Assembly (NCBI RefSeq): GCF_030519375.1
Contig: NZ_JAUMKB010000001.1
Location: 310,001 to 374,000 of the forward strand
Source of the DNA: Mucilaginibacter tolerans
GTDB taxonomy: Bacteria; Bacteroidota; Bacteroidia; Sphingobacteriales; Sphingobacteriaceae
Length of the DNA stretch: 64,000 nt
Direction of reading: 5' to 3'
The position numbers and the translations under genes are program-made. The notes beneath the pieces are model-generated. The model searched no databases, was not told the origin of the DNA, and was given only the letters and a program-made list of their open reading frames with translations. The first letter of the stretch is position 1. The number at the start of each line of letters is the position of its first letter. Below, one piece after another: positions 26,725 through 37,535 of the stretch.

Positions 26725-27825
26725 CTATCTCTTCACCCCAAACATCCGCAGCTCCTTATCAATCTGCTCATTCCATTGCGCCTGGGCAGCACGGTCCGTC
26801 CCATGCTTTGTTTCGCCATCGTATTGTTTTTGCATACGTGTTGCTTCGCGCAATGCTTCAAGATATTCTACATTAATAGGACCGTAAAAATTATCAGCAG
26901 GCAGCTTCATTGACAGCAATTTCTTCTTATACCGCTCGCTAATTATTTTCTCAATATCAAAGTGCCGTTGCTCATGGTTCAATATATAATCATCTTTTTC
27001 TCCTTTCACCCAGCAATCGCTTTTGGCTACGCTTACTTTGATGGCCATATCTACATAGATGATTCCGTTCACTACACTGTTCTGTTGTGCATAGCCCATT
27101 AACGGAATTACTTCCGCCTCAAAATGACTGTCCCGTGGCCGCTCCTTAAAATCGGCCCAGGTAAGCGGGCGTTTGGGAGAATAATAAATAGTATCGCCTT
27201 CGGGCGTTTCGGTATAATCTGTAAACCTGATTTTCACAGCTTTTGCGAGCAGTGGGTTGGTTCCGGCATTGTTGTTCATCCAGTCATTAAAGTCAGACAG
27301 TACGCCCTCCAATCCCATCCTTAGAATTGCTTCTATATCAACCTGCTGGTTGACACTCCTATCATAGCGGACACCTCCGCTAAAATCCACAAGATGCGTC
27401 TTATCGTATTTCGACTTCAGTGAGAATGAAAAAACAACAGTTAAGTGCCCGTTTATAGTGCCTGATGGTGATTTCTCTTCGGTCAGTTTTAATTCCTTTA
27501 TACCTAATACGATAGCACGTTTTTCTGTATTTCGATCTAAATTATGCAGTACAAAATCCCGGACCGATACCCCTGCCCCTCCTTGAAGATCAACCGGTTT
27601 GGAGGTAAGCGACCGATCGGGGTTTAAGTAGATCAGGGTTGCAACCGGGGCCTGGCTTTTTCGCTCATCTGCTACAGCTGAGATGTAAAACTCTTTGGGC
27701 GTTACTTTTATTTTTTCGTCACGCAGGATAATAGTATCGCCAGTTTTCTGTTTAATACCAGATGCCCCGCACAGCAAAATACTAACAATTGAAAACATTA
27801 AGACGAGACCGCGGTTAAATGACAT
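26725..27825 (-). CDS. DUF922 family Zn-dependent protease-like lipoprotein
   Basis: A 366-residue exported protein. The N-terminal hydrophobic segment ends with ILLCGAS, a plausible lipobox. The C-terminal half carries the DUF922 hallmark, YYSPKRPLTWADFKERP followed by ILNHEQRHFDIEKI, in which His284-Glu285-x-x-His288 is the zinc-binding motif of the predicted metallopeptidase. The N-terminal half is a beta-rich domain of unknown role. The family is annotated as putative secreted Zn-dependent proteases, without biochemical proof. It is a single gene beside the inverted-repeat element; its 3' end lies 10 bases from that repeat. Confidence 0.85.
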   Translation of the reverse strand: MSFNRGLVLMFSIVSILLCGASGIKQKTGDTIILRDEKIKVTPKEFYISAVADERKSQAPVATLIYLNPDRSLTSKPVDLQGGAGVSVRDFVLHNLDRNTEKRAIVLGIKELKLTEEKSPSGTINGHLTVVFSFSLKSKYDKTHLVDFSGGVRYDRSVNQQVDIEAILRMGLEGVLSDFNDWMNNNAGTNPLLAKAVKIRFTDYTETPEGDTIYYSPKRPLTWADFKERPRDSHFEAEVIPLMGYAQQNSVVNGIIYVDMAIKVSVAKSDCWVKGEKDDYILNHEQRHFDIEKIISERYKKKLLSMKLPADNFYGPINVEYLEALREATRMQKQYDGETKHGTDRAAQAQWNEQIDKELRMFGVKR

Positions 27826-28025: not shown

Positions 28026-31000
28026 ATGACCAAACTGAAATACACCGCTATTATTATTCCTGTATTTTTTTCGCTAACAGCCAGAGCCCAGCAAGACCCT
28101 TCTTTCCAGATTTATAGAACGTATCACGCCGCATCAGACCTGCTTAGCAAAGGTAAGTATGTTGCAGCAGCTGAGCAATTCCGTTTGGTAGAACATTCAA
28201 GACTGGAAACAAGTACTCAACCTAAGTTTGAGTCGTCGCTGACACTGGTACAGGAAAATGCACAATATTACGAAGCGGTTTGCTCGCTTGAGCTGGGAAA
28301 TGACGATGCCGAGAGCCTTTTCATGAAGTTCATTAAAGATCATCCTGAAAATCCTCTGGCAAAAGTGGCATACTTTCAGATAGGTAAATTCTACTTTAAG
28401 GAGGGGAAATATACCGAAGCTTTACAATGGTTCAATAAAGTAAATGCGGGTGACTTAATAGGCAGTCAGACTATTGAGTACAAATTCCGAAAAGGTTATG
28501 CTTATTTCGAAACCAACGACTACAAAAATGCACAACTGCTTTTCAGCGAAGTAAAAAATGAGCAGTCGCCTTACACACAGGATGCGACGTACTATTTTGC
28601 TTACATCGCTTATCTGAACAAAGACTACCACCTGGCCCTGGTCAACTTTGAAAAACTAAAAAATTCAAAGAAATACGAGAGCAGCTATCCATACTACATC
28701 ACTGCGGTTTATTTCCTTGATAAACGCTATAACGATGTGATCAGCTATGCGGTGCCGATCTTGAAAACCACACATCAGCAGCACGAAACCGAAATGCTGC
28801 GCATAGTAGGTGCTTCTTATTTCACAAAGGCTGATTATGATAACTCTGTAAGCTATTATAGCCGCTTTGAAGATCAGGATCACGGCAAAACTCAAAATAC
28901 GCAGGATAGCTACCAGATGGGTTATGCTTATTTCAAGGTAGGCAACTATGCCAAATCAGCCAGTGAGCTGGAAAAACTGGTTGACCAGAACGATATCTAC
29001 GCTCAAAATGGCAATTATACTTTAGGAAATGTATTCCTGAAGATGAACAACAAGCAGAGCGCACGCAATGCCTTCTTCGTAGCGTCAAAAATGAATTTTG
29101 ATCCGCAATTGCAGGAAGATGCTTTGTATGAATATGCCAAATTATCTTATGAGCAGGATTTTAATACCCAGGCGCTGGATGCAACAAGATTGTACCTGAA
29201 AAACTATCCGCAATCGCGCAGAACCGATGAGGTAAAAACTTTGCTTGGTGAAGAATTACTCACCTCGAAAAACTACAAAGAAGCAGTTGAGATATTAGAG
29301 CCAATTCCGAATAAATCAGCAAGCGCAAGAGCGGCATATCAAAAAGTGACCTACTACCGCGGTTTGGAATTTTATAACGAGCGCGCTTTTGAAAATGCCA
29401 TCGGCATATTCCTGCGCTCATTAAAAAACCCATCAGACAAAAAGACCGAGGCCCTAACAGTTTACTGGATGGCAGAAGCGATGTTCGAAGTACGTAAATA
29501 CGGCGAATCGGTACAAAACTTTGAACGCTTTCTGGATATGGATGCTGCCAGCGAAACTGCTGTATACAACTATGCCAACTACGCATTAGCTTACGCCGCC
29601 TTTGGCGATGAGCAATACAAAAAAGCTGCCCGTTACTTTGAGAAATTTTTGGCCGGTGACGAAAAAGACCGCAATACCATTAACGACGCAATCACGCGCT
29701 TAGGAGACAGCTACTTCGTGCTGAAAGAATACGGGAAGGCACGTGAAAACTACGACAAGATCATCGCGCAGCATACTAAAGGCGAAGATTATGCTTTATT
29801 TCAACGCGGTATGATACAGGGTTTGCAGGGTTCGCCGGATGCGAAGATCAGCACCCTGACCGATGTGCTGAGCCAGTTCCCGAATTCAGACTATGCAGAT
29901 GACGCCTCTTTCGAGATCGCTTATACTTACTTCCTGAAAAACGATGGCTCAATAGCCAAACAGGATCTGCAGGCGATGATACAAAAGTATCCGCACAGCA
30001 GCTATATCCCGCGTGCATTGGTAACTATCGGTTTGATCGATTATAACGCAGGTAATGATGACCTGGCAGTTGAATCATTCAAAAAGGTAATATCTGATTA
30101 CTCATCAACCGACGAAGCTAAACAGGCGCTGAAACAGATCGAAAAAATATATACCGATAAAGGTGATGCACAAACATTCATCACTTATGCACAAACTACG
30201 CCTATTGGCAATTATACGGCTGCAGACCAGGAAAACATCATGTTTACGGCTGCCAACAACCTTTACTTGAAAGGTGATTGGGCCGGAACAGTTCAGGGGG
30301 TAAATGCCTACCTGGATAAGTTCCCAACTAAACCAATCTATGAAAAACAGGCGCACTTTATCAGAGGTCAAAGTTTGATCAACCTGAAACGTGGCGACGA
30401 CGCTGTAGCCGACTTCAACGTAATATTGAACGATTGGACCAGCGCTTATACCGAAAAATCACTGATCAGCATGGCCAACTGGGAAATTTCTCAGAAGAAA
30501 TATAACGAAGCCGTTGTATACCTGAAGAAGCTGGAGATCAACTCAGAATATAAAGCCGACTACTCATTTGCGATCAACAACCTGTTACTGTGTTATGCAC
30601 AAATGAAGAGCCCCGATGATGCATTAAAATATGCTAAACTGGTTCGTGAGTATGAGAAATCATCACAGGAAGATAAGTTCAAAACAGGTTTATATGCGGG
30701 CATAGCTTATATGCAAAAAGGCGATACCACATCGGCAGTTAAGGAATTTGACTACACCGTAGCTAATACCAAAACTATTGCTGCCGCTGAAGCTAAATAC
30801 AACATCGCCCAGATAGAATACAATAAAGGGAAATACAAATCATCGCAGAAGACCTGTTTTGATTTAGTTAAAGGACTACCAAATTATGACTACTGGGTGG
30901 CTAAGACCTACATCCTGCTGGCTGATAACTATATGGCGATGAAGGATAACTTCCAGGCTAAAGCTACGCTGCAAAGTATTATAGACAACTACAAAGGCGA

Positions 31001-31118
31001 CGATGATATTTTACCAACAGCAAAAGATAAGCTGGAAAGATTAGGTACGGGTGGAACTAAGGCGACTAAACAAGCACAACCCAAACAGGAAACCCAACCG
31101 GATACGACTAAAAATTAA
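28026..31118 (+). CDS. Large periplasmic TPR repeat protein
   Basis: A 1030-residue exported protein (signal peptide from MTKLKYTAII to about RAQ) composed almost entirely of tetratricopeptide-like helix pairs, for example YFQIGKFYFKEGKYTEALQW, AYFKVGNYAKSASELEKL and GLYAGIAYMQKGDTTSA. Such arrays bind partner proteins and resemble the TPR part of YbgF/CpoB in the Tol-Pal system. The start at 28026 was chosen because the signal peptide begins there; the frame extends to 27972. It is the first gene of a run of barrel, HU-SPOR, ExbB, ExbD and TonB-like genes and probably scaffolds that complex in the periplasm. The C-terminus is Gln/Thr/Lys-rich and disordered. Confidence 0.9.
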   Translation: MTKLKYTAIIIPVFFSLTARAQQDPSFQIYRTYHAASDLLSKGKYVAAAEQFRLVEHSRLETSTQPKFESSLTLVQENAQYYEAVCSLELGNDDAESLFMKFIKDHPENPLAKVAYFQIGKFYFKEGKYTEALQWFNKVNAGDLIGSQTIEYKFRKGYAYFETNDYKNAQLLFSEVKNEQSPYTQDATYYFAYIAYLNKDYHLALVNFEKLKNSKKYESSYPYYITAVYFLDKRYNDVISYAVPILKTTHQQHETEMLRIVGASYFTKADYDNSVSYYSRFEDQDHGKTQNTQDSYQMGYAYFKVGNYAKSASELEKLVDQNDIYAQNGNYTLGNVFLKMNNKQSARNAFFVASKMNFDPQLQEDALYEYAKLSYEQDFNTQALDATRLYLKNYPQSRRTDEVKTLLGEELLTSKNYKEAVEILEPIPNKSASARAAYQKVTYYRGLEFYNERAFENAIGIFLRSLKNPSDKKTEALTVYWMAEAMFEVRKYGESVQNFERFLDMDAASETAVYNYANYALAYAAFGDEQYKKAARYFEKFLAGDEKDRNTINDAITRLGDSYFVLKEYGKARENYDKIIAQHTKGEDYALFQRGMIQGLQGSPDAKISTLTDVLSQFPNSDYADDASFEIAYTYFLKNDGSIAKQDLQAMIQKYPHSSYIPRALVTIGLIDYNAGNDDLAVESFKKVISDYSSTDEAKQALKQIEKIYTDKGDAQTFITYAQTTPIGNYTAADQENIMFTAANNLYLKGDWAGTVQGVNAYLDKFPTKPIYEKQAHFIRGQSLINLKRGDDAVADFNVILNDWTSAYTEKSLISMANWEISQKKYNEAVVYLKKLEINSEYKADYSFAINNLLLCYAQMKSPDDALKYAKLVREYEKSSQEDKFKTGLYAGIAYMQKGDTTSAVKEFDYTVANTKTIAAAEAKYNIAQIEYNKGKYKSSQKTCFDLVKGLPNYDYWVAKTYILLADNYMAMKDNFQAKATLQSIIDNYKGDDDILPTAKDKLERLGTGGTKATKQAQPKQETQPDTTKN

Positions 31119-31154
31119 TTAACAGGATAACAAAGAAATAGGAAAAGACAAGCA

Positions 31155-32981
31155 ATGATCAGATCAAGATTTATATACGCGCTGCTTACCTTAGTAATAG
31201 TATTTTACTTTGCTCCTGCTAACGCACAGAATAAAACTACTACTAAAAATAAAAAGGCCACTACCGTTAAAAAGCCTGCTGAGAAGCCGAAAACAGCTGC
31301 TAAAAAACCAAAGGTTAGTTCAGCTGCACAGGATACCACAAAAAAAAGTGCACAGGGTCAAGCCAATAAAAACGCCAATCAAGGTGGTTTATCAGAAGAG
31401 GTAGTGGTGACTACTGCTTACAAACCGGTTTTGGCTGATGCAGTGAAAATACGCCGTAACCCTGATTTGGAAGATAAAACGCCATTTAAGGCGCCACTAA
31501 CTTACTTCCCGCTAGACAAACGCCTCGAGCGCAATACCGATATCCACCAACTACAGGCGATGCAGATGCCGAAAGAACAGGATTCGGTGCCGTCAAATAA
31601 CTATGCACGTATCGGCGTGGGCAATATGAAAACCACTTTTGGCGAGGTTTATATAAATAACGGACAGGATCAGGCACTACAGGTGGGCGGCTTTGGCAAA
31701 CATATTGCGCAATCAGGCAGTATCCCTAAGCAAAATGAAAGCCGCGATGAAGCAGGTGTATTTATAAAAGGCATTGTTGACGATAATGATATTATCGCAC
31801 GCATAGGATATAACAGAAGAGCAACTTATTTCTATGGATTCGATCCCAGCAATCCACCACAAGCATACAGCCCGTTAGCGCAGCATTTTAATACCATAAC
31901 CGGTACTGTCGAGCTGACTAAGAAATTCAAGGACGAGCAAAACGCATTTACCTACGCGGCTAAAATAGATGGCTATTTATGGAACAATGCATTTGCAACC
32001 AAGGAAAACAATATCGTACTGAGCGGCTTCGTTAACCAAACTGTTAAACAGTTTTATGCGGGCCTGGGCGCTTCATTAGACATGAGTTCTCAAAAGGACA
32101 GCGCTTATTCTATTAATAACAACCTGGTACGGTTGAACCCCTACTTGAAATTCCAGGGTGACAATTATAAAATCGATGTGGGATTGAACCTGGTTCGAGG
32201 GTTCGGCAACTCTACTAAAGCATACATCTTCCCTGCTGCCAAGCTTGAATTCCAGGTGATACCAAAATATGTGCGCCTGTTTGCCGAAGTGAAGGGTGAT
32301 GTCAATAAAACCTCGTTACATGATTTGGCCGAAGAAAATCCGTTTATCGAAAATAATATTCCAATCCAAAACTCAGTCGACAGACTTGATCTGGCAGCAG
32401 GCTTAAAAGGCACCGTTGCTCCGGGCGTTGGGTTCAAATTTACCGTATTCAGAAACAGGGTAAAAAATATGCCATTACTATTGCTTGACTCTAACTCATA
32501 TAACCATAACCAATTTGGAGTTGTGTACGACAACGGTACTGCAACTATCACGGGTGTAAATGGAGAGCTGGACGTTAAAGTTTCTGACGAAGTGAATGTA
32601 TTCGGCAGGGTTGAATATAAAGACTACAAAATGGCAAGTGAAGCTGAGCCCTGGAACCTGCCTAAATTTAAACTGACAGCAGGCACCCAACTGCATATCA
32701 CCAAACAGCTCAGCATTAATGGAACCTTGCTATTCAGAGGAAGTACATATGACAGAACTACCCCTGTAGTCATTACCAATGGTAACAGTACCACAACTAC
32801 ATTCCAACTGGTTCAGATCAGCTCATTTGCTAATCTTAGCGGCGGTGTAGAATACAAGATCAACAATACGTTTTCAATTTTTGGACAGGTAAACAATATA
32901 CTGAACAACAACCCTCAGGTCTGGCGCAACTACCAGGCATATGGTTTCAACATATTTGGTGGTGTAGGTGCACATTTTTGA
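31155..32981 (+). CDS. TonB-receptor-like outer membrane beta-barrel, plug domain reduced
   Basis: A 608-residue exported protein with a signal peptide ending in APANAQ, a 60-residue Lys/Ala/Thr-rich linker, and a barrel. Residues about 78-105 contain EEVVVTTAYKPVLADAVKIR, reminiscent of the TonB box and start of the plug of TonB-dependent receptors, but the rest of the plug is absent and the barrel begins directly. The many aromatic alternating strands and the final strand GFNIFGGVGAHF ending in phenylalanine support an outer membrane barrel. It follows the TPR gene by 36 bases and probably interacts with the TonB-like protein of this operon. Confidence 0.85.
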   Translation: MIRSRFIYALLTLVIVFYFAPANAQNKTTTKNKKATTVKKPAEKPKTAAKKPKVSSAAQDTTKKSAQGQANKNANQGGLSEEVVVTTAYKPVLADAVKIRRNPDLEDKTPFKAPLTYFPLDKRLERNTDIHQLQAMQMPKEQDSVPSNNYARIGVGNMKTTFGEVYINNGQDQALQVGGFGKHIAQSGSIPKQNESRDEAGVFIKGIVDDNDIIARIGYNRRATYFYGFDPSNPPQAYSPLAQHFNTITGTVELTKKFKDEQNAFTYAAKIDGYLWNNAFATKENNIVLSGFVNQTVKQFYAGLGASLDMSSQKDSAYSINNNLVRLNPYLKFQGDNYKIDVGLNLVRGFGNSTKAYIFPAAKLEFQVIPKYVRLFAEVKGDVNKTSLHDLAEENPFIENNIPIQNSVDRLDLAAGLKGTVAPGVGFKFTVFRNRVKNMPLLLLDSNSYNHNQFGVVYDNGTATITGVNGELDVKVSDEVNVFGRVEYKDYKMASEAEPWNLPKFKLTAGTQLHITKQLSINGTLLFRGSTYDRTTPVVITNGNSTTTTFQLVQISSFANLSGGVEYKINNTFSIFGQVNNILNNNPQVWRNYQAYGFNIFGGVGAHF

Positions 32982-33018
32982 GTTGGATGATTTGTGATTT
33001 ACTGTTACTTTTAGCGGA

Positions 33019-34173
33019 ATGGATTTAGCCGTATATATAAGTGAACTACTGGGATTAGAAGGCGAAGTAAATGTGCCGGGAATTGGTCGCTTTGCCCAAA
33101 CCCGCGTCAACGGCTACTATCAGGAGAAGGAAAATAAGTTCTACCCCCCGACACATAAAATAAGTTTCGACCCGGAGCATTTACCCGACGACAAGCTGGC
33201 CACTTTTATCTCGGAGAAGAAAAACATTTCGCTGGCATCAGCAAAATACTTTATCGACAAGTATGTCAACGGGTTAAAACAACAGATACCCGTACAAAAG
33301 GTGGATGTCGCTGGGATTGGGCAACTTTATTTAAATGGTTCAACAATTGGATTTAGCGAGGATGCGCCATCTAAAGAAAATGATCCCGCATTTTTTGGGT
33401 TGAAGCCTGTTAATGTAGAAGTACTGGTAGAAAAACCAACGGTGAGATACACTCCTCCTCCAATTAAAATTCAGGAAGAGAAAAAAGCCCCTTCCATTGC
33501 CGATCAGGTGATGACCGAACTGGTGAACGACCGCATTCCTCCGCCGCCACTCAAACCTATGGTTACAGAACAACCTCCTCCTGTTATTGAAAAACCAACG
33601 GTTATTGAGGAAACAGAACAGCCAGCAGAAGAAGAATATGTTTATGAAGAACCTGCAAGGCGGAATAATAATACCTGGATAGCAGTATTGCTGATACTGA
33701 TCATCGCCCTGCTCGCGTTGACGGGTCTTTATAGGTACAAGCCTGAGTGGTTTGACCGTTCGAAAGATAAGCCTCAAACTTTTGTACCTGTTGATACTAC
33801 CGCTAAACAACCGATAGAGAACCAAGCGACCGGTACAGATACAACTAAAAAGGCTGTCGTCGCTACCAAACAGGATTCTTTGGCAAAGGCACAAGCGCTT
33901 GTTACAAATAATACCGTTGATACGGCAGCCGTCCGCTGGGAAGTCATAGGAAGTTCATTTGAAACACAAGCAGCGGCAGAGCATGCAATAGGAAATTACA
34001 AAAGCATAGGACTTGAAGCCAAGGTAGTGACAGATGCACCCGGAAAACGTATAAAACTAACTTTAGGCACCTATAGGACTGAAAAAGAAGCAGAGGATGC
34101 AAAGTTAGCCTTAATTAAAACCGGAAAGGTTAAGAAAGACATTTATACATTAAAAATCAAACCAAAAAAATGA
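33019..34173 (+). CDS. HU (CCDC81-type)-SPOR transmembrane protein
   Basis: A 384-residue protein with a striking layout. Residues about 1-60 and 65-115 form two HU-like units of the CCDC81 prokaryotic type (LLGLEGEVNVPGIGRF and VQKVDVAGIGQLYL carry the repeated V-P/A-G-I-G turn). A proline-rich linker (about 125-215) leads to one membrane span (about 218-238, WIAVLLILIIALLALTGLY), then a disordered periplasmic linker and a SPOR domain (about 305-384, VRWEVIGSSFETQAAAEHAI), which binds denuded peptidoglycan. The HU part would be cytoplasmic. The gene overlaps the TolQ-like gene by 4 bases. Function is inferred as linking cytoplasm and cell wall. Confidence 0.92.
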   Translation: MDLAVYISELLGLEGEVNVPGIGRFAQTRVNGYYQEKENKFYPPTHKISFDPEHLPDDKLATFISEKKNISLASAKYFIDKYVNGLKQQIPVQKVDVAGIGQLYLNGSTIGFSEDAPSKENDPAFFGLKPVNVEVLVEKPTVRYTPPPIKIQEEKKAPSIADQVMTELVNDRIPPPPLKPMVTEQPPPVIEKPTVIEETEQPAEEEYVYEEPARRNNNTWIAVLLILIIALLALTGLYRYKPEWFDRSKDKPQTFVPVDTTAKQPIENQATGTDTTKKAVVATKQDSLAKAQALVTNNTVDTAAVRWEVIGSSFETQAAAEHAIGNYKSIGLEAKVVTDAPGKRIKLTLGTYRTEKEAEDAKLALIKTGKVKKDIYTLKIKPKK

Positions 34174-34874
34174 TGCTATTAGCACAAATAACTGATACGG
34201 CGCATAAACTGGCCGACACTGCAAAAAATTTACCACTCGTGCCCGGGCAGGGTGATGAGCTGAGATTCGGCGATTTGCTGATCAAGGGTGGTTGGGTAAT
34301 GATCCCGATTGGGTTTCTGGCAGTATTAGGGCTTGTAATATTCTTTGAGCGATATTTTACCATTCGCAAAGCCGCCAAAGATGAATCGAACCTGATGAGC
34401 CAGGTGCGTACCAGTATTTTGACAGGCAAGCTGGAATCTGCAATAGCGATATGCCGCAACAGTAATTCGCCGCTTGGCCGTATGCTGCAAAAAGGTTTGC
34501 TGCGTATCGGCCGCCCGATAAAGGATATTGAGGGTGCTATTGAGAATGTGGGTAAACTGGAAGTTTCCAAACTGGAAAAAAACATCAGTATATTAGGTAT
34601 CGTGGCTGGTATAGCGCCGATGTTTGGGTTCCTGGGAACAATTGCAGGGGTTATTAAAATATTTTATGATATATCAAAGACTGATAACATTAGTATGGGC
34701 GTAATATCCGGTGGTTTATATGTGAAGATGGTGACATCTGCAGCCGGTCTGATGGTTGGTATAGTGGCTTATGTATGTTATCATATATTACAGATGATGG
34801 TAGATAAAGTAATTTTGAAACTGGAAACCGATGCTATAGAATTTATCGACCTGTTAGAAGAACCAAGCAAATGA
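34170..34874 (+). CDS. MotA/TolQ/ExbB proton channel family protein
   Basis: A 234-residue inner membrane protein that, with its TolR/ExbD partner, uses the proton gradient to energise outer membrane processes. The first span is WVMIPIGFLAVLGLVIFFER and the conserved TolQ/ExbB core is APMFGFLGTIAGVIKIF and VTSAAGLMVGIVAYVCYH in the second and third spans. An N-terminal hydrophilic extension of about 30 residues precedes the first span. It overlaps the HU-SPOR gene by 4 bases and the TolR-like gene by 4 bases, so the three are translationally coupled. Confidence 0.94.
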   Translation: MMLLAQITDTAHKLADTAKNLPLVPGQGDELRFGDLLIKGGWVMIPIGFLAVLGLVIFFERYFTIRKAAKDESNLMSQVRTSILTGKLESAIAICRNSNSPLGRMLQKGLLRIGRPIKDIEGAIENVGKLEVSKLEKNISILGIVAGIAPMFGFLGTIAGVIKIFYDISKTDNISMGVISGGLYVKMVTSAAGLMVGIVAYVCYHILQMMVDKVILKLETDAIEFIDLLEEPSK

Positions 34875-35272
34875 ATTTAAGAAAAAGACATCAGCGCGTA
34901 TCGGCTGAGGTGCATACCTCGGCAATGAACGATATTATGTTCTTTCTGTTGCTTTTCTTCCTGATCGCTTCGACCATCACCAACCCGAACGTGATCAAAT
35001 TGATGCTGCCAAAATCATCGTCGGGCAAGGCAATGTCTAAAAAAACTATTTCGGTGAGTATTAGCAAGGATCTGAAATACACCGTAGAGAAAAAGCCGGT
35101 CAAAGTTGAGGATCTGCAAACTACACTAATGAGTTTCAAAAACGTGGCAACTGAATTGACGATAGTTTTGTCGGTAGACCGTACAGTAGCCATACAAGAC
35201 GTAGTCCAGGTGATGGATATAGCACAGAAATTGAATATAAAACTTGTTCTGGCAACGGAACCTAAAGGATAG
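34871..35272 (+). CDS. ExbD/TolR family protein
   Basis: A 133-residue protein with one membrane span near the N-terminus. The conserved span motif is MNDIMFFLLLFFLIASTIT, where the aspartate is the proton-carrying residue of the family. The remainder is a small periplasmic domain (YTVEKKPVKVEDLQTTL and DRTVAIQDVVQVMDIA) typical of ExbD/TolR, which contacts peptidoglycan or the TonB/TolA partner. It partners the preceding TolQ/ExbB gene. Length and motif are normal. Confidence 0.95.
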   Translation: MNLRKRHQRVSAEVHTSAMNDIMFFLLLFFLIASTITNPNVIKLMLPKSSSGKAMSKKTISVSISKDLKYTVEKKPVKVEDLQTTLMSFKNVATELTIVLSVDRTVAIQDVVQVMDIAQKLNIKLVLATEPKG

Positions 35273-35284
35273 ATTTTGTGGTAG

Positions 35285-35304
35285 AGACGCAATGCATTGC
35301 GTCT
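35285..35304. repeat. Perfect 20-bp intergenic palindrome, copy 1
   Basis: AGACGCAATG followed by its exact complement CATTGCGTCT lies in the short gap between the ExbD-like and TonB-like genes. A near copy is at 42702-42721. It could fold into a hairpin and weaken downstream expression, or be a dispersed repeat. Confidence 0.6.
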
Positions 35305-35322
35305 TTTAGTAATTGAAGAGAG

Positions 35323-36135
35323 ATGGAATATTACCAGGAAGAGAATAATTACCCCAAGGCATTTTTGGCCACAGGCATCATTATGGGAATATTGATCGCC
35401 TTGTGTTATTTCATTGTGTTTCATAACCCGCCTCCGCAAGAGATGGGAACCGGTGGAATATTGGTTAATTATGGTACAACCAATGAAGGTATGGGCGATG
35501 ATTATATGAGTACGGAAGAGCCTTCAAAATCAGAGAGACCAAATCATACAAAACCAACTAAAATTACTAAGGCACCTGTTACACCTCAAAAAACCCAGGA
35601 GGCCCCCAGCGATAAAAAGGTGGTTACCCAGACTACAGAGGATGCACCCGAGGTAAAGGACAATGCTAAAAAGCCGACTACTGCCCCGGTTTCACAAGCT
35701 ATTGCCAAACCTGCCAAGCCGACGCTAAATCAAAATGCATTATATAAGGGCAAACCCACAGGCGGAACAGGAAATGGCGACGGAACAACCAATACTCCCG
35801 GCAACCAGGGTAGCCCGAACGGATCGAACCTTTCAAATAACTATAATGGTACAGGTTCAGGAAATGGTGGTCTAGCCCTGGCAAACAGAAGTTGGGTATC
35901 GCGTCCTACTGTTGACGATAATCACCGTACTACAGGCGTTATTATGGTTCAAATACAAGTTGACAAAAATGGCAATGTTGTTTCTGCCACCCCGGGCGCC
36001 AAAGGTACAACCGTATCCGATTATGAACTTTTCAATAGATGCAAAGAGGCCGCGCTAAATGCGAAATTTAACCCTTCCGATAATGCTCCGGATTTACAAG
36101 TAGGTTATATAAAATTTACGTTTAGAGTAAAATAA
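35323..36135 (+). CDS. TonB-like energy transducer
   Basis: A 270-residue protein with an N-terminal membrane span (about residues 9-30, FLATGIIMGILIALCYFIVF), a long Pro/Thr/Lys- then Gly/Asn-rich periplasmic linker (about 60-185) and a C-terminal TonB domain (about 185-270, with IMVQIQVDKNGNVVSATPG and NRCKEAALNAKFNP). It receives energy from the adjacent ExbB/ExbD pair and would contact an outer membrane protein, probably the barrel encoded in the same operon. It ends the run of envelope genes, 51 bases after the ExbD-like gene with a palindrome in between. Confidence 0.9.
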   Translation: MEYYQEENNYPKAFLATGIIMGILIALCYFIVFHNPPPQEMGTGGILVNYGTTNEGMGDDYMSTEEPSKSERPNHTKPTKITKAPVTPQKTQEAPSDKKVVTQTTEDAPEVKDNAKKPTTAPVSQAIAKPAKPTLNQNALYKGKPTGGTGNGDGTTNTPGNQGSPNGSNLSNNYNGTGSGNGGLALANRSWVSRPTVDDNHRTTGVIMVQIQVDKNGNVVSATPGAKGTTVSDYELFNRCKEAALNAKFNPSDNAPDLQVGYIKFTFRVK

Positions 36136-36245
36136 ACAGTTTGCAGGTGTCGGGTTGCGGTTTGCATCTTCTAATTACATAGCTTTGTCCTATTCGATTG
36201 GCTATTGCCCACTGCCCACTGCCAACTGATAACTGCCAACTGAAA

Positions 36246-37535
36246 ATGGACTACCAACAAACCCTCGACTACCTTTACAGCCAGTTACCGATGTTTACCC
36301 GGGACGGGGCTTCTGCATTTAAAAAGGACCTGACCAATACGCTGGAGCTTTGCAAACGACTTGTTGATCCTCAAAAAAAGTTTAAAAGCGTGCATATTGC
36401 AGGGACGAATGGCAAAGGCTCCACCTCGCATATGCTGGCAGCTATATTACAAACGGCGGGATACAAAACAGGGCTTTACACGTCTCCTCACCTGCGCGAA
36501 TTCAGGGAACGCATCCGCATCGATGGGGAGATGATCAGTCAAGATCATGTGATCGATTTTGCAGAAAATCATCGTAAAGACTTTGAAGATATTAAACCTT
36601 CTTTTTTTGAAATGACAGTTGCTATGGCTTTTGACGCTTTTGCCCGCGCCAAAGTGGATATAGCGATTATTGAAGTTGGTTTGGGCGGAAGGCTTGACTC
36701 AACCAACATCATTACTCCCCTTCTTTCGGTAATTACCAATATTGGATGGGACCACATGAATATGCTGGGCGATACACTTCCTCTTATCGCAGGAGAAAAG
36801 GCAGGCATTATTAAACCTGGCATTCCGGTGGTTATAGGCGAATATCAATCTGAAGTTGCCGATGTTTTCATTAATAAAGCGAAAGCAGAAAACGCCCCGA
36901 TCAGATTTGCATCAGAGGAATGGGAGATTTTGAAGTCGGAGGTCACATCAGAACATTTAGAATTTAGCATCCTCAAAAAAGACTCAGGACTCAAGACTCA
37001 AGACTTAAAACTTGACCTCACCGGTACCTATCAACTTACAAATGCAAGGACGGTCTTATCTGCAGTAGACGAATTGCGCCGACGGGGTTTTGCAATAAGC
37101 GATGATGAGGTAACAACCGGATTGAGCCAGGTAAAAAGACTAACCGGGCTTCATGGTCGCTGGGAGACATTGAGTCATCATCCGCTTACCATTTGCGACA
37201 CTGGCCATAACCCGGAAGGCATAACCGAAGTATTAAAAAACATCGAAAGCACGCCACATGAAAACCTGCATATTGTGATGGGTGTAGTGAATGACAAAGA
37301 TATCAGCAAAATACTGGCAATCCTGCCCAAACGTGCCATCTATTATTTCTGCAAACCCGATATCCCGCGTGGACTAGATGCGGAATTATTACAACAAAAA
37401 GCCGTAGCCTTCGGTCTGCATGGCGAAATCTATGTGTCCGTAAAAGCCGCTCTGAAAACTGCACAAAGTCACGCCGATAAAAGCGATCTGGTGTTTGTAG
37501 GTGGAAGCACTTTTGTGGTAGCGGAGGTTGTCTAG
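36246..37535 (+). CDS. folC: Folylpolyglutamate synthase/dihydrofolate synthase
   Basis: A 429-residue cytoplasmic Mur-ligase family enzyme that adds glutamate to (dihydro)folate. The ATP-binding loop is HIAGTNGKGSTSHMLAAI, followed by GLYTSPHLREFRERIRIDG, and the Mur-type middle block is IAIIEVGLGGRLDSTN and GWDHMNMLGDTLP. The C-terminal domain includes TICDTGHNPEGI. The start at 36246 (MDYQQTLDYLY) was chosen because the frame upstream translates a repetitive, non-protein intergenic sequence. It follows the TonB-like gene by 110 bases and may be independently transcribed. Confidence 0.96.
   Translation: MDYQQTLDYLYSQLPMFTRDGASAFKKDLTNTLELCKRLVDPQKKFKSVHIAGTNGKGSTSHMLAAILQTAGYKTGLYTSPHLREFRERIRIDGEMISQDHVIDFAENHRKDFEDIKPSFFEMTVAMAFDAFARAKVDIAIIEVGLGGRLDSTNIITPLLSVITNIGWDHMNMLGDTLPLIAGEKAGIIKPGIPVVIGEYQSEVADVFINKAKAENAPIRFASEEWEILKSEVTSEHLEFSILKKDSGLKTQDLKLDLTGTYQLTNARTVLSAVDELRRRGFAISDDEVTTGLSQVKRLTGLHGRWETLSHHPLTICDTGHNPEGITEVLKNIESTPHENLHIVMGVVNDKDISKILAILPKRAIYYFCKPDIPRGLDAELLQQKAVAFGLHGEIYVSVKAALKTAQSHADKSDLVFVGGSTFVVAEVV

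Follow-up and report, generated by a model that had tools for sequence, protein, structure and literature searches.

A conserved six-gene ExbBD-TonB envelope cluster is a candidate replacement for Tol-Pal in Bacteroidota

The 64,000-nucleotide stretch of the Mucilaginibacter tolerans genome analyzed here (positions 310,001 to 374,000 of contig NZ_JAUMKB010000001.1, hereafter the window) contains, at positions 28026-36135, six co-directional open reading frames (ORFs) on the + strand that encode a tetratricopeptide repeat (TPR) protein, an outer-membrane barrel, a protein with HU and SPOR domains (HU-SPOR), ExbB, ExbD, and a TonB-like protein (Table 1). The cluster, which is kept across almost the whole phylum Bacteroidota, constitutes a second, dedicated motor driven by the proton-motive force (PMF), with a transducer of the TonB/TolA fold, separate from the Ton system for nutrients. 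We lean towards the view that it couples the inner membrane and the cell wall to the outer membrane, most likely doing the job of Tol-Pal, that is, it would pull the outer membrane inward and prevent its detachment, chiefly where the cell divides. All six ORFs were located where the initial annotation of the window had placed them, as were the two ATGA overlaps that it had described, of four bases each, between the HU-SPOR and ExbB genes (34170-34173) and between the ExbB and ExbD genes (34871-34874); the remaining intergenic gaps in the cluster measure 36, 37, and 50 bp. The genome harboring the cluster has 5.2 Mb, and the nearest named relatives of its TPR protein belong to Mucilaginibacter species (69-94% identity).

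Full-length orthologs of the TPR protein (E < 1e-30) were found in 280 of the 395 Bacteroidota genomes of our phylum sample and in ~96 of 98 genomes of the class to which the window belongs. Among 79 TPR-bearing loci that we read, picked for diversity rather than randomly, the barrel gene adjoins the TPR gene in 73, the run TPR-barrel-HU/SPOR-ExbB-ExbD is found in 42, and all six genes are together in 25, 16 of which also contain folC. The six-gene order recurs both within the class, in other families, and beyond it, in lineages from further classes, and it is kept in all 45 of the 45 Mucilaginibacter-type loci whose contigs reach tonB, which is far beyond chance. A scan of the collection with the TPR protein alone retrieved 54 loci, nearly all of them from Mucilaginibacter or from Bacteroidetes metagenome-assembled genomes. 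Local or chance clustering can be rejected on the basis of the synteny across families and across lineages outside the class. Conservation restricted to close relatives, the outcome that the initial annotation had named as contrary to its proposal, is the opposite of what we observed, since the cluster recurs across the phylum. It is conserved as a single-copy core system, and the architecture of this six-gene machine is well supported.

The genome contains exactly two proteins of the MotA/ExbB family, one in the cluster and the other in a canonical Ton locus (C19:34000-45000) where exbB-exbD-exbD-tonB are followed by a gene for a phosphate-binding protein (pstS) and by a gene for a TPR protein of 585 aa. 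Exactly two ExbB-type motors, typically one long and one short, are also present in 104 of 119 genomes of the class. The channel residues of the cluster motor are invariant (ExbD D21 and ExbB G153, T157, and G193, each in 65 of 65 sequences). In the ExbB tree, the cluster proteins, whether linked to the rest of the cluster or not, group apart from canonical ExbB and from TolQ with moderate support (65/78), and the joining of canonical ExbB with TolQ may reflect long-branch attraction, as suggested by their long branches and by a warning of the program. That the cluster ExbB is not a TolQ is indicated both by its NCBIfam score (64.5 vs 221 bits for TIGR02796) and by its separation from TolQ in the tree. 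In one genome, the immediate neighbor of the cluster is a gene for a second, long-type ExbB, accompanied by two more ExbD-like frames (L143:8027-14394).

The barrel protein encoded in the window and 15 members of its family yielded no Pfam match, plug domain PF07715 included; as a control for this search, ~60 plug-bearing receptors were detected elsewhere in the same genome. An AlphaFold model based on 75 family members predicts a confident barrel (predicted local distance difference test, pLDDT, ~96) from residue 150 onward, with residues 26-147 disordered ahead of the first strand and devoid of a plug. In the PDB, this model comes closest to TonB-dependent transporters such as BtuB and FhuA (Z ~22, Foldseek/VIA), and the family profile also matches solved TonB-dependent receptors by sequence; the protein has the 22-strand-type beta barrel of such a transporter and lacks its plug domain. 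Most of the 75 aligned barrels carry a TonB-box-like motif in the N-terminal tail (EEVVVTT here and KTIDVTS, REIEIRG, or PEFVITG elsewhere), at exactly the place where the initial annotation had pointed out the segment EEVVVTTAY. The TonB-like protein of the window, for its part, has no Pfam match and only a sub-threshold match to TIGR01352 (16.5 vs 27.1 bits); TonB_C was matched in 25 of 47 members of its family. Its AlphaFold model shows a compact C-terminal domain joined by a disordered linker to a transmembrane helix. The PDB entries most similar to it are TonB C-terminal domains, the Foldseek E values being modest (0.004-0.02), so that family profile and model both indicate a TonB C-terminal domain fold.

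In these respects the cluster resembles the Ton systems that energize transporters such as BtuB and FhuA, with which it shares the ExbB/ExbD/TonB fold, the barrel fold, and the TonB-box-like tail. It differs from them by its TPR and HU-SPOR partners and its one ExbD. Part of it has probably been described before. In Riemerella anatipestifer, exbB-exbD-tonB1 encode an ExbB of 24 kDa, an ExbD of 14.7 kDa, and a TonB of 30.6 kDa, and a second locus consists of exbB-exbD-exbD-tonB2 followed by a phosphate-binding-protein gene (PMC4446302). Since the layout and the sizes are the same, including the phosphate-binding-protein neighbor of the canonical locus, Riemerella ExbBD-TonB1 is very probably the orthologous motor, an assignment made from layout and sizes and not from sequence comparison. 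Like the cluster motor it has a short ExbB and a single ExbD and is distinct from the exbB-exbD-exbD-tonB2 locus, but it was described purely as an iron/hemin Ton system, and TPR, barrel, and HU-SPOR partners were not recognized (PMC4446302, PMC5109031). The ability of this complex to power, in E. coli, its own hemin receptor and the E. coli iron transporters, together with the loss of hemin uptake in the tonB1 tonB2 double mutant (PMC4446302), is what would be expected if the cluster were a second nutrient-uptake Ton system merely sited beside envelope genes. In the native host, however, loss of tonB1 leaves hemin uptake and iron-depleted growth unaffected when tonB2 is intact, whereas loss of tonB2 impairs them (PMC4446302); in rich medium, cells that have lost tonB1 grow more slowly whether or not hemoglobin is present (PMC5109031). 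These results suggest that the main role of the motor in its host is not obviously iron uptake, though it is capable of it. In addition, the barrel of the cluster is plugless and has neither a SusD gene nor a substrate-enzyme or Fur-type gene beside it, and the SPOR and TPR parts belong to a single-copy core system in a genome whose ~60 plug-bearing receptors have a separate canonical Ton locus available. The reading as a plain second iron-uptake Ton locus is accordingly weakened, and we hold a second nutrient-uptake Ton system to be improbable.

The TPR protein contains the tol_pal_ybgF domain (187.5 bits, seven stretches in the profile search). Its identification as the PorW/SprE component of type IX secretion was rejected, with only 55 bits for NF052312 against a cut-off of 250. 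The nearly constant adjacency of this large protein to the barrel could also be explained by a protein export device, the other option named in the initial annotation, for which a plugless pore is equally well suited. The 22-strand-type barrel would then be the exit pore, the TPR protein its periplasmic cap and cargo adaptor, and the force delivered by ExbBD-TonB would open the pore or pull the cargo; PMC6434023 provides a precedent in Myxococcus, where a TonB-dependent barrel is required for protein secretion (Oar/PopC). Yet the cluster has no conserved companion gene for a protease, a surface layer, or a signal-sequence family, a universal single-copy system would need a universal cargo, and both the SPOR/HU protein and the absence of the system from the clade that has Tol-Pal (see below) would be left unexplained. 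We regard the export pore as the main rival of a Tol-Pal-like function, but as an unlikely one.

The third gene product was named HU-SPOR in the initial annotation, and the SPOR part of that name stands, via the family, whereas the single HU does not, because the protein has two HU domains, PF18174 (35.4 bits, above the cut-off of 26) and PF18175 (32.7 bits, just below the cut-off of 35; HU-CCDC81_bac_2 was found in 19 of 19 family members). SPOR (PF05036) reaches 16.5 bits in the window protein, against a cut-off of 21, and, with a best E of 1.3e-9, was matched in 11 of 19 family members. At the profile level, the family resembles a solved SPOR domain as well as residues 2-55 of HU-alpha, the similarity to HU being confined to the first 55 residues and not covering the DNA-gripping arm. 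No paper using the term HU-CCDC81 was found in the open-access literature searched. In two families, Flavobacteriaceae- and Weeksellaceae-like, hu-spor is directly followed by a gene for a 4HBT (YbgC-type) thioesterase (L045:8485-8994 and L043:10740-11264). The YbgC gene is a neighbor of tol-pal in E. coli, and the thioesterase beside HU-SPOR in these two families fits a Tol-Pal-like role. In other classes, the gene for the HU2-TM-SPOR protein (TM, transmembrane) is often immediately preceded by one for a small HU-like protein that corresponds to HU domain 1 (L059:9689-9853, L088:11182-11346, and L103:10586-10744).

The distribution of the cluster is complementary to that of canonical Tol-Pal, which supports its interpretation as an analogue of that system. 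In the genome containing the window, the best TIGR02800 (TolB) match is partial and reaches 90.7 bits against a cut-off of 343, PF04052 has no match, and the best match to the Pal equivalog TIGR02802 has 84.9 bits against a cut-off of 125.35, other OmpA-domain proteins being present; the absence of TolB, TolA, and Pal that the initial annotation had noted for the window thus extends, for the TolB and Pal equivalogs, to the whole genome. Within the phylum, TolB-sized proteins with PF04052 occur almost exclusively in family f18, which is devoid of the TPR ortholog. Full-length TolB (TIGR02800) was matched in 20 of 20 f18 genomes, which serve as the positive control, 18 over the curated cut-off and two just under it, and Pal (TIGR02802) exceeds its cut-off in all 20; the f18 genomes that we read carry a tolQ-tolR-tolA-tolB-pal-pal-cpoB operon. 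The presence of the FMO antenna protein in 20 of 20 supports a Chlorobiaceae-like identity of f18 and marks these genomes as green sulfur bacteria, the only sampled clade with a true tolQRAB-pal operon. Conversely, neither TolB nor Pal is found over its cut-off in any of 40 other genomes, 22 of which have the TPR system. Fisher tests on these counts gave p ~1e-5 and 5e-9, but the genomes are related and hence not independent of each other. The initial annotation had envisaged a "dedicated, energised trans-envelope machine", which is well supported by the phylum-wide cluster, its place as one of two motors, its own ExbB group, and the TonB-box-like tail; its further suggestion, "perhaps" a Tol-Pal analogue, is strengthened by the distribution complementary to Tol-Pal and keeps its conditional wording.

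The likeness to Tol-Pal (TolQ-TolR-TolA-TolB-Pal-CpoB) lies in the existence of a second dedicated PMF motor beside Ton with a TonB/TolA-fold transducer, a TPR partner with CpoB/YbgF-type repeats, a peptidoglycan link, and, in the two families mentioned, the YbgC-type thioesterase. The differences are as follows: the TPR-bearing genomes tested have no TolB propeller or Pal over the family cut-off, the outer-membrane partner is a plugless transporter barrel, the peptidoglycan link is an inner-membrane HU-SPOR protein, and the ExbB is not a TolQ. Our best reading is that the cluster works like Tol-Pal without being a member of that system, as judged by TolB, Pal, and TolQ. Phylum-wide conservation resembles that of a housekeeping envelope system, and Tol-Pal mutants have lipid-homeostasis defects; both points would also suit a role in outer-membrane biogenesis or in lipid or lipopolysaccharide transport, with the motor moving lipid or glycan across the periplasm or removing it from the outer membrane. 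This appears quite improbable, as the cluster contains no Lpt, Mla, Tam, or Lol-like component and its barrel has the fold of TonB-dependent transporters.

If the cluster does perform a Tol-Pal-like function, its parts may be arranged as follows. The ExbB5ExbD2 complex would turn proton flow into movement by the known mechanism of the family, whose key residues are kept. The TonB-like protein, anchored by its one transmembrane helix, would span the periplasm by means of the disordered linker, and its C-terminal domain would grip the tail of the barrel, as the structures of both proteins and the conserved tail suggest. Because the barrel has lost the plug, the pull would not amount to the ordinary opening of an import gate; its target would be either the barrel itself, serving as a handle or anchor in the outer membrane, or the TPR protein bound to it. 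The periplasmic TPR protein, probably a partner of the barrel since the two are nearly always encoded side by side, might serve as lever or cap. Finally, the SPOR domain of the HU-HU-TM-SPOR protein would target or license the machine at denuded septal peptidoglycan, with the HU-type domains providing a link to the cytoplasm, and the outcome would be outer-membrane constriction and attachment. Septal localization and a contribution to outer-membrane stability are predictions of this scheme, which derives from sequence and structural models.

Several observations weigh against this scheme. To those already given, namely the plugless pore and the iron and hemin transport attributed to the Riemerella complex (since the latter drives iron transporters in E. 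coli, the role of the cluster motor may not be purely dedicated), four others have to be added. The complementarity with Tol-Pal represents one evolutionary event, as it rests on one clade, the green sulfur bacteria, and 18 of the 40 other genomes have neither TolB/Pal nor TPR at the thresholds used (families f13, f16, f29, f38, and f41, one f20 genome, and two genomes of the class, G394 and G269). In families f2 and f3, the HU protein lacks the SPOR domain. The histidine typical of the TonB/TolA transmembrane helix, kept in many relatives, is replaced by Met, Leu, or Cys across the window's own family (residues 10-34, positions 35350-35424), which weakens a literal Ton-like coupling there. 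Lastly, the six genes do not stay together in the Flavobacteriaceae- and Weeksellaceae-like families, where TPR-barrel, HU-SPOR, and ExbB-ExbD-TonB stand at separate loci; the ExbB proteins of these split clusters stay inside the cluster ExbB group in the tree.

On balance, we consider the six-gene machine the best candidate for a Tol-Pal replacement in a major bacterial group. In its most complete form, which we advance only tentatively, the proposal is that Bacteroidota replaced Tol-Pal by a plugless transporter barrel, used as an outer-membrane handle and pulled by a dedicated ExbBD-TonB, with a giant TPR lever and an HU-SPOR protein as the link to septal peptidoglycan and, perhaps, to division on the cytoplasmic side, and that most of the phylum would have inherited this machine from its ancestor, the exceptions being confined to lineages that retain Tol-Pal or have lost both. 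A transporter barrel would then have been turned into a mechanical anchor. How Bacteroidota, a dominant phylum of gut, soil, and sea, attach and constrict the outer membrane at division without Tol-Pal is stated as an open question in a 2025 passage (PMC12204202), and the cluster provides a specific candidate across the phylum: its genes can be named, the TonB C-terminal domain is predicted to contact the barrel tail, and a pattern of exclusion with Tol-Pal is predicted as well. That passage makes no mention of the six-gene cluster, and no paper describing the six-gene set was found in the open-access literature searched, where only its ExbBD-TonB part, as Riemerella TonB1 if the orthology is correct, is described. 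According to the same source, PorE, a CpoB-TolB-Pal fusion, has been proposed as the tether between outer membrane and peptidoglycan of Bacteroidetes, and so likewise to make up for the lack of Tol-Pal in the phylum; it differs in being a single lipoprotein without a dedicated motor, and it may be a further partner of the six-gene machine and not the same system. Motors of the TolQR type also have other TPR-containing companions. The Agl-Glt system of Myxococcus combines such a motor with TPR and envelope partners, and so do the vWA-TPR-TolQR clusters of the PVC (Planctomycetes-Verrucomicrobia-Chlamydiae) group, as outlined in PMC12204202; both have a different transducer and, as far as these accounts go, neither a plugless TonB-box barrel nor an HU-SPOR protein.

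Table 1. Coordinates of the cluster genes, their domains, and the conserved neighbor folC in the window.
Feature	Position	Strand	Basis
TPR protein with Sec signal peptide and ~1000 residues of tetratricopeptide repeats, putative periplasmic scaffold	28026-31118	+	1030 aa ORF; TPR families
Outer-membrane barrel of the TonB-dependent-transporter type, without plug domain	31155-32981	+	608 aa; AlphaFold, structure matches
TonB-box-like segment EEVVVTT, barrel residues 81-87, in disordered N-terminal tail	31395-31415	+	Hydrophobic-alternating motif, aligned barrels
HU-HU-TM-SPOR protein with both HU-CCDC81 domains (1 and 2) in the cytoplasm, one TM helix (~220-238), and SPOR in the periplasm	33019-34173	+	384 aa; PF18174, PF18175, PF05036 in family
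HU-CCDC81 domain 1	33025-33177	+	PF18174, E 1e-8
HU-CCDC81 domain 2	33196-33339	+	PF18175, E 7e-8
SPOR domain, denuded-glycan binding by family	33952-34110	+	PF05036 sub-threshold here, clear in relatives
ExbB, short type, proton-channel ring	34170-34874	+	234 aa; PF01618
ExbD, axle subunit, conserved transmembrane Asp D21	34871-35272	+	133 aa; PF02472
TonB-like force transducer with one TM helix (10-34) and, after a disordered linker, the C-terminal domain (187-270)	35323-36135	+	270 aa; AlphaFold
FolC (folylpolyglutamate/dihydrofolate synthase), conserved neighbor	36243-37535	+	TIGR01499, 379 bits

The folC gene probably shares a transcription unit with the cluster, to which its function is unrelated. 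In many families it lies directly after the cluster tonB, even where the TPR-barrel half has moved (L051, L074, L123, and L132-L139), and this linkage is possibly just that of a shared promoter. Scans of the sequence for sigma-70-type promoters and for terminators gave signals no better than those of shuffled sequence. The gene for a DUF922-like protein (26725-27825) lies upstream of the TPR gene in divergent orientation, and in the loci L032-L035 of the genus the same place is taken by an ORF that likewise points away from the TPR gene and is matched by position and size (362-397 aa).

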